From: Ruminococcus sp.
GTDB lineage: Bacteria; Bacillota; Clostridia; Oscillospirales; Ruminococcaceae
NCBI GenBank assembly: GCA_015066745.1
Contig: SVNW01000011.1
Span: forward strand, 1 to 64,000
DNA length: 64,000 bases
Direction: 5' to 3'
Within the stretch, counting starts at the first letter, position 1, and every line of letters starts with the position of its first letter. The translations under genes were made by a program, and so were the position numbers. Below, piece after piece: positions 43,632 to 58,425 of this stretch. The notes under the pieces were generated by a model. The model was not told the origin of the DNA, ran no database searches, and was given only the letters and a program-made list of their open reading frames with translations.

Positions 43632-44702
43632 ATGTCCAGAATAAGAGTGGCTGTAATTTTCGGCGGAGTTTCAAATGAATATGAAACATCGCTTCTGGCG
43701 GCGTCGTCAGTTATAAATAATATTGATAAAGAAGAATATGAAACGATCTGCATAGGAATAACCCGAAAGGGCAGATGGCTTTATTATCCGGGTACAGCAG
43801 AAGAAATACAGTATGACAGATGGAGTGAGAACTCTGATTGTATACCTGTAGCTATTTCACCTGATCCGAACAGAAAAGGTATCATAAAGCTTGAGAACGG
43901 AGAAGCATCATTTTCAAAAGTTGATGTTATTTTTCCTTTGCTGTACGGCAAAAACGGTGAAGACGGAACAATTGCAGGAATACTCAGGTGTACAGGTATT
44001 CCTTTTGTCGGAAGTGAGCTTATGGCATCAGCAGCCTGCATGGATAAGACTTACACACGAATGGTTCTCGGTTATAACGGAATAAAAACTTCAAACTGGC
44101 GTATGATGTTCAGAAACGAATTAAACGAACTTGACAGCAAGTGTCGTCAGTACTGCGATGAACTGTCATATCCTATCATGGTAAAACCGGCTAATTTCGG
44201 TTCATCTGAAATGCTCAGAACAGCAAACGATTACGATACTTTAAAAAATGCTATCAAACTTGCGCTTGCGCAAGATGAAAAAGTAGTTATTGAAGAATAC
44301 GTAGAAGGAAAAGAACTGCAGATTGCGGTTACAGGATACGAAAGACTTACAGTATCAGAACCGGGTGAAGTTATAGTAAAAAAAGACGACTTTGACTTCA
44401 ATGATATGTTCAGTCGAAGAGAATACATTATTCCTGCGGATATAAGCTGTGAAGTTGCAGAATCATTAAAACAGCTTTCAGTAAAAGTATATAAGCTTAT
44501 GGGCTGTACGGGAATGGCACGTATTGATTTTTATAAAACAGACAATGACGAAATAGTAATAAGTCAGATAAATACAGTTCCCGAAATTTCTGAAGGAAGT
44601 ATGTTCGTGAAGTTAATGGCTCTTTCCGGATATAATTTTACAGAACTTATAACAGAACTTATAACACAGGCTATAGTCAACTACGAAGGCAAGTCAGTGT
44701 AA
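43632..44702 (+). CDS. Divergent D-alanine--D-alanine ligase family protein
   Basis: The 356-residue protein has the complete Ddl fold pattern: GGVSNEYETSL near residue 11, YGKNGEDGTIAG, SAACMDKT with the ATP lysine, IMVKPANFGSSE, VVIEEYVEGKELQ, GMARIDFY and ISQINTVPEIS. Compared from memory with E. coli DdlB, several active positions differ. The His of HGxxGEDG is Tyr105, the GSSVG loop reads GSSEM, and the Lys-Tyr of the omega loop aligns with Met259-Phe260. The Mg2+ Glu of ExN is Gln312, and the Gly of the following PG is Glu318. It is therefore a poor candidate for the main cell-wall Ddl and may be a pseudoenzyme or use another substrate. The ATG at 43632 follows GGGGGGA. First gene of a three-gene operon. 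Confidence 0.8.
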   Translation: MSRIRVAVIFGGVSNEYETSLLAASSVINNIDKEEYETICIGITRKGRWLYYPGTAEEIQYDRWSENSDCIPVAISPDPNRKGIIKLENGEASFSKVDVIFPLLYGKNGEDGTIAGILRCTGIPFVGSELMASAACMDKTYTRMVLGYNGIKTSNWRMMFRNELNELDSKCRQYCDELSYPIMVKPANFGSSEMLRTANDYDTLKNAIKLALAQDEKVVIEEYVEGKELQIAVTGYERLTVSEPGEVIVKKDDFDFNDMFSRREYIIPADISCEVAESLKQLSVKVYKLMGCTGMARIDFYKTDNDEIVISQINTVPEISEGSMFVKLMALSGYNFTELITELITQAIVNYEGKSV

Positions 44703-44728: not shown

Positions 44729-45523
44729 ATGAAAGAATACTCTATCGGAGTTTTTGACTGCACAGTAGGCGGTCTTGCTCTGGTAAATGAACTGAACTTA
44801 CTGCTGCCTTCCGAAAAAGTAATATATTTTTCAGAAAAACTTAAATCTGATGCTACAGCAGATGAAAAAGAATCTTTAAAAAATTGCACTATTGATAAGA
44901 TAGATTTTATTAAAAAATATAATGTAAAAGCAGTAGTTTCATGCTGTAGTGATATAAATTCCGCATGGGGCATGAAAATGCCTTTGACGGATATAACATA
45001 TTCGGGTACTTTTCTTCCGGCAGCTCAGTCAGCGTGTGCCGTTACAAGAAACAACAAGATCGCAGTTATGGGTTCTTCAAAGATAATAAAAAAAGGTTGC
45101 TATGCAAAGATAATCAAAAATATCAGACAAAATATTACTGTTATGGGTGTAGCGTGTCCATATCTTAGCGGTATGGAAGAAGATGATACCAACTTTATAA
45201 ATAAAGAGGATTTTATAAAGTCAACATCTGATATATTTGAGAAACTTCGTGAAGAAAAAGTTGATGTTGTTATAGTGGCAGATGGTTATTATCATCTTAT
45301 AACAGACGAGATAAAAAAACTTGCAGAAGGTTCTTTTGAACTTATATCTCCCTATGAAGAAACAGCAAAGAAGATATATAATGACTTGCTTGGGGAAGAT
45401 TTGCTGACAGACAGTGAAGAAACTGCTGATAATATAATTTATTTTGATGAAAATGAAGCTCTGCATAAAAAAGCAGTTTCATTTTTCCTCAAAAGAACTA
45501 CAGAATTAAAACCTATAGATTAA
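44729..45523 (+). CDS. Divergent glutamate racemase (MurI) family protein
   Basis: The 264-residue protein aligns along the whole MurI fold: IGVFDCTVGGL at residues 6-16, LPSEKVIYF, VKAVVSCCSD with a cysteine at the first catalytic position (Cys73), IAVMGSSKIIKKGCY, and VACPYLSGMEE. The aspartate of the FDSGVGG motif is kept, but Ser is Cys. The GDxxxxPYG substrate motif is lost, and the second catalytic block GCTHYP reads ADGYYH (184-189), so the second cysteine is missing. Two-base racemisation by the normal mechanism appears impossible. It may be a pseudoenzyme or a regulator; some MurI proteins moonlight on gyrase, which is family knowledge. Located 26 bases after the Ddl-like gene. Confidence 0.75.
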   Translation: MKEYSIGVFDCTVGGLALVNELNLLLPSEKVIYFSEKLKSDATADEKESLKNCTIDKIDFIKKYNVKAVVSCCSDINSAWGMKMPLTDITYSGTFLPAAQSACAVTRNNKIAVMGSSKIIKKGCYAKIIKNIRQNITVMGVACPYLSGMEEDDTNFINKEDFIKSTSDIFEKLREEKVDVVIVADGYYHLITDEIKKLAEGSFELISPYEETAKKIYNDLLGEDLLTDSEETADNIIYFDENEALHKKAVSFFLKRTTELKPID

Positions 45524-56020: not shown

Positions 56021-56066
56021 ATAAATGCATCATATCTGTTTTTTGGATACGATGCATTATTTTTAT
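56021..56066 (+). terminator. Convergent terminator
   Basis: AATGCATC / GATGCATT with an inner TATC / GATA stem and a T-rich loop is followed by ATTTTTATCC. The hairpin lies between two convergent genes and may serve both, since A-rich sequence precedes it. Confidence 0.75.
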
Positions 56067-56731
56067 CCTTCAAGCCTTATTACGTTGTCAAAAAGTGCAT
56101 AAAACTTTTGTGGAATAATTTTGTTCATATGACATTTTCCGAAAAACCATTTGTCAAATTTACATTCGGAAAGTATCTGTTCAAAGAAAGTATCTGTTTC
56201 AAGTCGGTGAAGCATATCGAGATCAAGGCATTTTTTCAGTGAATGCGGTGGCTCGTGTGTAATAATATAATCAACTTTTCCATCATGGGCAAGAAGATTT
56301 TTTACACCTTCCTCAACTTCTTCTATGGTTGGCTGTTCTTCTTCAAACCATGTGTTTGTTTCACGTCTTATATCAATGTCCTGACTGTGACCTCCGCCGA
56401 AGGTAAAGAACTTTTTGCCTTCTATAGTGTACACCTGACCTCTTTTAAGATGTACAAGCTTTCCGCCTATGGCACGGGCTGTTCCGCCGTTCCATTGTAT
56501 TTCAGGATATTCGGAAAGAAGTTTAAAGTTTTCATGACAACCGTCTATAAAAGCAACAGTGTATTTTAGTTCGCCGATTTTTTTTAGTATCTGCTTTTCA
56601 GCTTTGTCGCCGTTCCATATAAATCCGAAATCACCGCAAACAATGAGTGTATCGCCTTTTTTTATTTTTCTTGTCGTAGAATCTTTAAATCTTGAAAAAT
56701 CCCCGTGAGTATCACCTGTAATATATATCAT
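56063..56731 (-). CDS. Metallophosphoesterase with altered metal motif
   Basis: The 222-residue protein has the calcineurin-like phosphoesterase order: DTHGD at residues 7-11, CGDFGFIW near 33, FIDGCHENF near 64, ITHEPPH near 158, and GKCHMN near 198. The usual third motif is GNH[DE]; here the metal-ligand asparagine is replaced by cysteine (GCHE, codon TGT). Substrates of this subgroup are unknown. The gene is monocistronic on the minus strand, convergent to the zinc-ribbon gene and divergent from the carboxypeptidase-like gene. It may still bind metals through cysteine. Confidence 0.85.
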   Translation of the reverse strand: MIYITGDTHGDFSRFKDSTTRKIKKGDTLIVCGDFGFIWNGDKAEKQILKKIGELKYTVAFIDGCHENFKLLSEYPEIQWNGGTARAIGGKLVHLKRGQVYTIEGKKFFTFGGGHSQDIDIRRETNTWFEEEQPTIEEVEEGVKNLLAHDGKVDYIITHEPPHSLKKCLDLDMLHRLETDTFFEQILSECKFDKWFFGKCHMNKIIPQKFYALFDNVIRLEG

Positions 56732-56876
56732 GTTACCACCTGTTTTATTTCAAAAATATAATAGGAAAAAAATTATCCTTAAAATATATTTTATCATAAA
56801 AAACACTTCACGTAAATATTTTATTTAAAATTTGTGAATTTTTTTATTCAAACCTCTTTTAAATGTCCTGAAAATT

Positions 56877-56885
56877 TGCTATAAT
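56877..56885 (+). promoter_or_regulatory. Extended -10 promoter of the carboxypeptidase-like gene
   Basis: TGCTATAAT, an extended -10 element about 40 bases before the ATG; the -35 region is poor. Confidence 0.45.
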
Positions 56886-56925
56886 AATTATGTATGAAAA
56901 AATAAATTTTTGGAGAGGGAAATAA

Positions 56926-58302
56926 ATGAAAAAGTTTTTAAGCGTTTTAACAGTAATTATCATTTTTCTCAGCATGATCCCTGCAGAAAGTGCTGAAGCC
57001 ATATCGTTCAATCCGTCCAAGACGATATACAGTGATTCGGCTATACTGTACAATCTGGACACTGAAACGATAGTTTATGAAAAAAAAGCTGATGACATAA
57101 AGCCCCCTGCGCAGTTGATACAGATAATGACAGCTATTATCGTACTTGAGAGACAGGAAGATCTTTCAGAAGTTGTAGAAGTTCCGTCATCTATCTTTGA
57201 AGAATTTACAGCATACAGGGAAAAGTATACTGAAGAAGAGTATCCGTACAGTGAAGTAACCACCTGTTACATTGACGAAGGCGAGCAGATGACTATCGAA
57301 AGTCTTCTGTATGCAATGATGCTCAGATCTTCATGTGAAGCGGCAAGCACGCTTGCATATATTGTAGGTGAAGGAAGCATACAGAACTTTGTAAGTATGA
57401 TGAATGAGAAAGCAAAGGAAATAGGCGCAGTAAACACAAAGTTTACAAATCCTCACGGACTCTATGATGAAAATCAGGTATCTACAGCACGTGATCTTAT
57501 GCTTATTACACGCTATGCACTTAATGTTCCCGGATTTTCAGAAATATCATCAACATATTTTTACAATACAGGTGCAACAAATATTCATGAGTCAGGCATA
57601 GACCTTGAAAACGTAAATATCATGATGGACTCTGAAAGCTCACACTATTATCCCGGAACAAAGGGTATAAAAACAGGTAACTCTAATCAGTCAGGACGTT
57701 GTCTTATCACAAAAGCTTCCAAGGACGGTCAGAACTATCTTCTCGTACTTATGAATTCTCCGCTTGAAATATCAGGTGAGACAAAGTTTACACATCTTAT
57801 GGACGCAGCTTCTATCTTTGACTGGGCGTTTGATACTATATCCTACAGAGTAGTAGTAGAAGAAAATAACGAAATAGCTACAGTAGAAATAAATTATGCA
57901 AAAGACAGAGATTTTATAAATCTCAAACCTGCAAAAGAAGTGTGGAGCATATGGCCTAAAAATGTAGATACAAAAAATATTGATTCGGAAGTACAGCTTT
58001 ACTATGAGGAACTCAATGCACCTCTTAAAGCAGGCGAAGTTATCGGAAGTGTAAAATTTACATATCAGGGTAACGAAATAGATACAGTAGACCTTGTTGC
58101 ATATAACGATGTTGAAGTATCAGAAATAAAATATGCTACAGCTGTACTGGAAACTTACTTTAAGTCGTCTGCTTTTAAACAGGCAATAAAGATAGCAATT
58201 GGTTTGTCGGTTATATATATTGTTGTTGTTATCTATGTAATAAATCTTCGTGCTAAGAAACGTCGTGAAATGCGTGCTGCGCAGAGAAGAAACATAAAGT
58301 AA
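56926..58302 (+). CDS. D-alanyl-D-alanine carboxypeptidase-like protein without Ser-x-x-Lys
   Basis: The 458-residue protein has the full layout of a class C low-mass PBP (DacA/DacF type): signal peptide to about residue 25, peptidase S11 domain to about 300, C-terminal beta domain, a membrane helix (about 418-440) and a basic cytoplasmic tail. KTG is intact at 249-251 (GIKTGNSNQSG), as is FTNPHGLYDENQVSTARDL. However, the nucleophile motif, normally PASTTKIMTA, reads PAQLIQIMTA: Ser and Lys are Gln63 and Gln66 (codons CAG and CAG). The SxN motif is SSC. It should not form an acyl-enzyme, so it is probably a pseudoenzyme that binds muropeptides or partners. Ribosome site GGAGAGG; own promoter and terminator. 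Confidence 0.85.
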   Translation: MKKFLSVLTVIIIFLSMIPAESAEAISFNPSKTIYSDSAILYNLDTETIVYEKKADDIKPPAQLIQIMTAIIVLERQEDLSEVVEVPSSIFEEFTAYREKYTEEEYPYSEVTTCYIDEGEQMTIESLLYAMMLRSSCEAASTLAYIVGEGSIQNFVSMMNEKAKEIGAVNTKFTNPHGLYDENQVSTARDLMLITRYALNVPGFSEISSTYFYNTGATNIHESGIDLENVNIMMDSESSHYYPGTKGIKTGNSNQSGRCLITKASKDGQNYLLVLMNSPLEISGETKFTHLMDAASIFDWAFDTISYRVVVEENNEIATVEINYAKDRDFINLKPAKEVWSIWPKNVDTKNIDSEVQLYYEELNAPLKAGEVIGSVKFTYQGNEIDTVDLVAYNDVEVSEIKYATAVLETYFKSSAFKQAIKIAIGLSVIYIVVVIYVINLRAKKRREMRAAQRRNIK

Positions 58303-58316
58303 AAAAATGAAAAAAC

Positions 58317-58365
58317 AATGCGGAAAATAGGTTTACATCAAGTAAATCATATTTTCCGCATTTTT
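58317..58365 (+). terminator. Terminator after the carboxypeptidase-like gene
   Basis: AATGCGGAAAATA / TATTTTCCGCATT plus an inner GTTTAC / GTAAAT stem, followed by TTTTT. T-rich sequence also lies on the other side, so it may work for the convergent DUF2185 gene as well. Confidence 0.9.
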
Positions 58366-58425
58366 CATAAATGGTAACAAATCGATGACAAAACAAAAAA
58401 AATCACTATAAATAATTATAAATAC

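Follow-up and report, generated by a model that had tools for sequence, protein, structure and literature searches.

PBP5-type proteins and the pseudoenzymes of wall metabolism are both well known. Low-molecular-mass penicillin-binding proteins are generally assumed to matter through the trimming of stem peptides, and in Escherichia coli PBP5 the replacement of Ser44 alone abolishes penicillin binding and activity (PMC2909392). The same study found that PBP5(S44G) does not complement, loses its septal localisation and is spread evenly; an anchorless PBP5(S44G) avoids septa, which the authors tentatively ascribe to a weaker affinity for substrate (PMC2909392). Other wall proteins work without catalysis. 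Bacillus subtilis PBP2B with an inactivated site still fulfils a crucial structural role (PMC5656894), and DipM (an inactive LytM protein) and CwlM (an amidase homolog) are wall-enzyme folds that act as regulators (PMC10336132, PMC4946905). In the open-licence literature we found no description of a naturally inactive S11 clade that has a single origin and extends over many genera, which is weak evidence of absence. Here we describe a gene from a window of 64,000 nucleotides of Ruminococcus sp. DNA, the whole stretch that was analysed. We consider it probable, at roughly 70%, that its product is an ancient and conserved non-catalytic homolog of the PBP5-type D,D-carboxypeptidases, i.e., a pseudoenzyme that works by binding and not by cutting.

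A PBP5-type protein with an altered SxxK site

The gene is an uninterrupted open reading frame on the plus strand (56926-58302) that encodes 458 residues. A signal-peptide-like N-terminus is followed by an S11 (beta-lactamase-like) domain at residues 32-278 (57019-57759, plus strand; Pfam PF00768, 2.2e-41) and a beta-rich PBP5_C domain at residues 310-397 (57853-58116, plus strand; PF07943, 4.1e-12). The C-terminal helix, modelled at residues 415-457 (58168-58296, plus strand), has a hydrophobic stretch and a basic tail and reads as a transmembrane anchor. The AlphaFold2 model, computed from an alignment of 68 sequences from the window and public genomes, has the PBP5 fold with a mean pLDDT of 92.7. 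Its best solved structural matches are E. coli PBP5 and PBP6, Pseudomonas aeruginosa PBP5, B. subtilis DacB and the Streptomyces K15 transpeptidase, with a best Foldseek E value of 5.7e-30 and a VIA-align Z of about 36 for PBP5, PBP6 and DacB. An earlier note on this DNA had described a DacA-type architecture of signal peptide, S11 domain, KTG and anchor, and had proposed a structure prediction; Pfam, the sequence and the model all agree with that description.

The active site is where the protein departs from this pattern. Aligned with active homologs, the protein has QLIQ at exactly the SxxK position, SSC at SxN and KTGN at KTGx. The SxxK position reads Q63-L-I-Q66 (CAG TTG ATA CAG, 57112-57123, plus strand), so that the nucleophilic serine is replaced by Q63 (codon 57112-57114) and the lysine by Q66 (codon 57121-57123), both encoded by CAG, just as the earlier note had read them. 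The model has a helix starting at residue 62, with Q63 and Q66 close to its N-terminus, the expected position in an SxxK helix. The KTG motif is intact, as K249-T250-G251 followed by N252 (57670-57681, plus strand). The SxN position reads S135-S136-C137 (57328-57336, plus strand). The earlier note was right to read SSC here but wrong to count it towards inactivation: SxC is the norm among sister orthologs that have the lysine, and 41/59 lysine-containing relatives carry SAC or SGC, hence a cysteine is normal for this branch. We therefore rejected SSC as a mark of inactivation. Because both essential residues of SxxK are gone, we strongly infer that catalysis has been lost.

Single origin and selection of the clade without the lysine

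Eleven genomes of the genus were examined, and all 10 orthologs found carry Q-x-x-Q (QLIQ, QLVQ or QTVQ), including those as distant as 53% identity; the remaining genome, an 87%-complete assembly, gave no ortholog match. A search for serine and lysine among near relatives, which the earlier note had proposed as a check, thus found neither in the genus. At the family level, 47 orthologs lack the SxxK lysine, drawn from nine genera plus three public records that include Ruminococcus flavefaciens XPD3002. The family sample was taken from the top-scoring orthologs, and the proportion of inactive forms in it is therefore no estimate for the family. In trees computed with the motif columns left out, the sequences without the lysine are monophyletic, with SH-aLRT support of 99 in a quick tree of 106 rows. 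In a second tree of 76 rows, 43 of them without the lysine, the clade has support of 100/99 and is present in all 200 bootstrap trees. Its sister orthologs are all S-x-x-K. On these trees, the loss of the catalytic residues is inherited as one clade: it happened once, in an ancestor, and has persisted in nine or more genus-level groups of a single family, the relatives of Ruminococcus.

Within the 47-member clade, the lysine site is Q in 29 sequences, N in 16, D in two and never K, and a restriction to amides and aspartate would be unlike free drift. The serine site still holds Ser in 14 sequences and is otherwise Q, P, H or A. Read most simply, the lysine was lost first and once, and the serine then changed several times; elsewhere in the clade, the 14 members with Ser may have residual chemistry. 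Two further sites have switched: Ser has replaced Ala at residue 136 in 45/47 sequences, and Asn has replaced Thr at residue 252 in 42/47. S135, K249 and T250 are invariant (47/47). Some further Clostridia S11 homologs also have altered motifs (YLAQ with KAS, AITN, ALAK and AATK among L027, L066, L095 and L099). These are less similar than the members of the clade and are not among the sequences in its tree; they are possibly independent losses.

The gene is intact and under purifying selection. By simple counting estimates, for which dS is high in many pairs, dN/dS is 0.087 over residues 28-400 against an 84%-identical ortholog and 0.02-0.09 in most other measurable pairs of the clade, with one pair at 0.20. 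The two domains differ in how far they have been released. The median ratio of S11 to PBP5_C divergence is about 0.65 in active orthologs vs 0.9 in the clade without the lysine (sister pairs, p = 0.005), and mean site entropy in that clade is 0.36 bit higher for the S11 domain, against a change of -0.06 for PBP5_C. Thus, the catalytic domain is partly relaxed, and PBP5_C is as constrained as in active relatives. The central claim of the earlier note, that SxxK chemistry was lost while a PBP5-like fold was kept, is in this way strongly supported and extends to a whole clade under purifying selection.

Genomic setting and other altered wall-synthesis genes

A possible promoter (TTTAAA-16-TATAAT) and the Shine-Dalgarno sequence GGAGAGGG precede the ATG (56858-56919, plus strand), though these are consensus matches only, and promoter-like matches in the region occur in about the number expected by chance. 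An intrinsic terminator follows directly after the stop codon (58317-58366, plus strand), with a stem of -23.1 kcal/mol (z -9.0 vs shuffles) and then a T run. Given this strong terminator of its own, the gene appears to be monocistronic. Upstream lies a divergent calcineurin-like phosphoesterase gene (56063-56731, minus strand; PF00149), which in the neighbourhood comparison is the sole recurrent neighbour outside the genus and, across the family, adjoins active orthologs in some cases and inactive ones in others. Its presence beside both kinds supports positional orthology, and we do not propose it as a partner. The same comparison found no conserved partner gene adjoining the S11 gene, and an operon partner was rejected in view of the terminator and of a recurrent neighbour that also stands beside active orthologs. 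At the threshold used, almost every family genome has one copy of the gene, so the change looks like the conversion of an ortholog and not of a spare duplicate.

The genome has two canonical S11 proteins (STTK/SGN/KTG), and canonical paralogs (S-x-x-K/SGN/KTG) were present in 9/9 genomes checked with PF00768, this one and eight others. A canonical D-Ala-D-Ala ligase gene adjoins murF, so D-Ala-D-Ala ends are presumably made.

Other wall-synthesis genes of the genome are altered as well. The window contains a second D-Ala-D-X ligase paralog (43632-44702, plus strand; best PDB match 4fu0) that matches VanG and Ddl models below their equivalog cut-offs. Its metal-site motif NEINTxPGF has become SQIN-x-VPE in eleven genus members (SQID in one), and all outgroup orthologs sampled have the canonical motif; going by these motifs, it is a probable second pseudoenzyme of wall synthesis. 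Adjoining it is a glutamate-racemase-like gene (44729-45523, plus strand) in which the second catalytic cysteine motif, GCTH, reads ADGYY; the four genus members seen share ADG-x-Y. PF01177 has no match in the genome, and the D-amino-acid transaminase matches there are all below cut-off. Elsewhere in the genome, an S11 paralog (L002; G000:C54:9583-10242, minus strand) has AVNK, NAN and KAS for SxxK, SxN and KTG, and the serine is also gone from its relatives in other genomes (L224, L225, L228 and L232). There thus seems to be a second, different inactive S11 line, judging from these motifs.

What the protein may do, and how it compares with known systems

The fold, part of the cleft and the C-terminal domain are kept under purifying selection, which speaks for a binding role; it is probably for this, and not for cutting, that the protein has been retained. 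A non-catalytic role is plausible given the precedents of PBP2B, DipM and CwlM, which we counted in favor of this explanation. The tree shows a single loss of the SxxK lysine, to an amide, in an ancestral single-copy S-L-T-K enzyme; the serine was then free to change and became Gln in this genus. The protein is predicted to cross the membrane and to stay anchored to its outer face, where PBP5_C and the anchor may hold it among the wall-synthesis machinery. Its S11 cleft, with the invariant KTG Lys-Thr and SxN Ser, may accommodate the ends of stem peptides or bind a partner enzyme, and such binding would position or restrain peptidoglycan remodelling. Trimming would be left to the canonical S11 paralogs. 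We give about equal weight to the binding of peptide ends by the cleft and to the binding of a partner protein.

The strongest competitor is a narrower form of this same explanation, so that their probabilities overlap: the protein may be a pure scaffold with a vestigial S11 cleft, in which the fold surface, PBP5_C and the anchor bind another wall enzyme. We rate this somewhat below an even chance. The confinement of relaxation to the S11 domain speaks for it, as do the variation of positions 63, 177, 251, 254 and 255 across the wider clade and the failure of PBP5(S44G) to localise to septa. However, a vestigial cleft fits poorly with the invariance of K249, T250 and S135, with a position 66 limited to Q, N or D, and with an SxN helix that is not relaxed in the clade; in addition, H177 and Q63 are fixed within this genus. 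For the binding explanation as a whole, the relaxation of H177, G251 and positions 63, 254 and 255 in the wider clade, together with the mislocalised PBP5(S44G), means that retained substrate binding should not be assumed for this protein. The Ser kept in 14 clade members and the lack of a conserved partner gene next to it also weigh against this explanation.

It is possible that the protein senses D-Ala-D-Ala, which the earlier note had suggested alongside a scaffold role. The invariance of K249, T250 and S135 would allow this, but the PBP5(S44G) data argue against it, as the behavior of that protein, by analogy, would speak against simple substrate holding. In a more specific version, linked switches (of K66 to an amide, of A136 to Ser and of T252 to Asn, with KT and the SxN Ser kept) would have turned the cleft into a non-hydrolysing receptor for the D-Ala-D-Ala ends of stem peptides. 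Such a protein would be a wall sensor anchored in the membrane, which beta-lactams would be unable to acylate and which was kept across the family. We put this forward tentatively and regard it as less likely than not.

Far less probable is a remodelled enzyme, in which S135 or the newly fixed S136 would serve, with K249, as the nucleophile for a different hydrolase or transferase activity. The switch of S136 from Ala and the invariance of S135 and K249 would suit such an enzyme, but S135 and K249 are just as invariant in ordinary S11 enzymes, and we know of no S11 enzyme in which the SxN Ser is the nucleophile. That the protein is still a working penicillin-binding carboxypeptidase despite Q63 and Q66 is very improbable: the fold and KTG are intact, but serine and lysine are both gone, and the loss of the serine alone is enough to kill E. 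coli PBP5 (PMC2909392). A local mutation, pseudogene or sequencing error, for which we found no supporting point, was rejected as next to impossible: 10 genus assemblies share Q-x-x-Q, the frames are intact, dN/dS is low and the clade has 47 members.

If the protein is indeed a binding pseudoenzyme, at least nine genus-level groups have kept the protein and discarded its chemistry, and the protein body itself would be useful. The clade would then be a natural system for telling structural from catalytic roles. The gene would be misannotated by an automatic label of D-alanyl-D-alanine carboxypeptidase, and counts of beta-lactam targets in these gut bacteria would be wrong to include it.

Among known systems, E. 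coli PBP5 and PBP6 (DacA and DacC) and B. subtilis DacB share with the window protein the fold, the domain order, the KTG Lys-Thr and the first Ser of SxN. Unlike them, it lacks the SxxK Ser and Lys, has SSC for SxN and ends in an anchor that is longer, helical and of the transmembrane type and that carries a basic tail. The active orthologs of its own family (SLTK / SAC / KTGT) are its one-to-one counterparts at about 36-42% identity, and some of them adjoin the divergent phosphoesterase gene; in contrast to the window protein, they keep S-x-x-K and T252, and their S11 domain is more constrained. PBP2B, DipM and CwlM are more distant comparisons. PBP2B is a class B transpeptidase whose inactive form is a laboratory mutant and no natural pseudoenzyme, and DipM and CwlM, whose partners are known, have unrelated folds.
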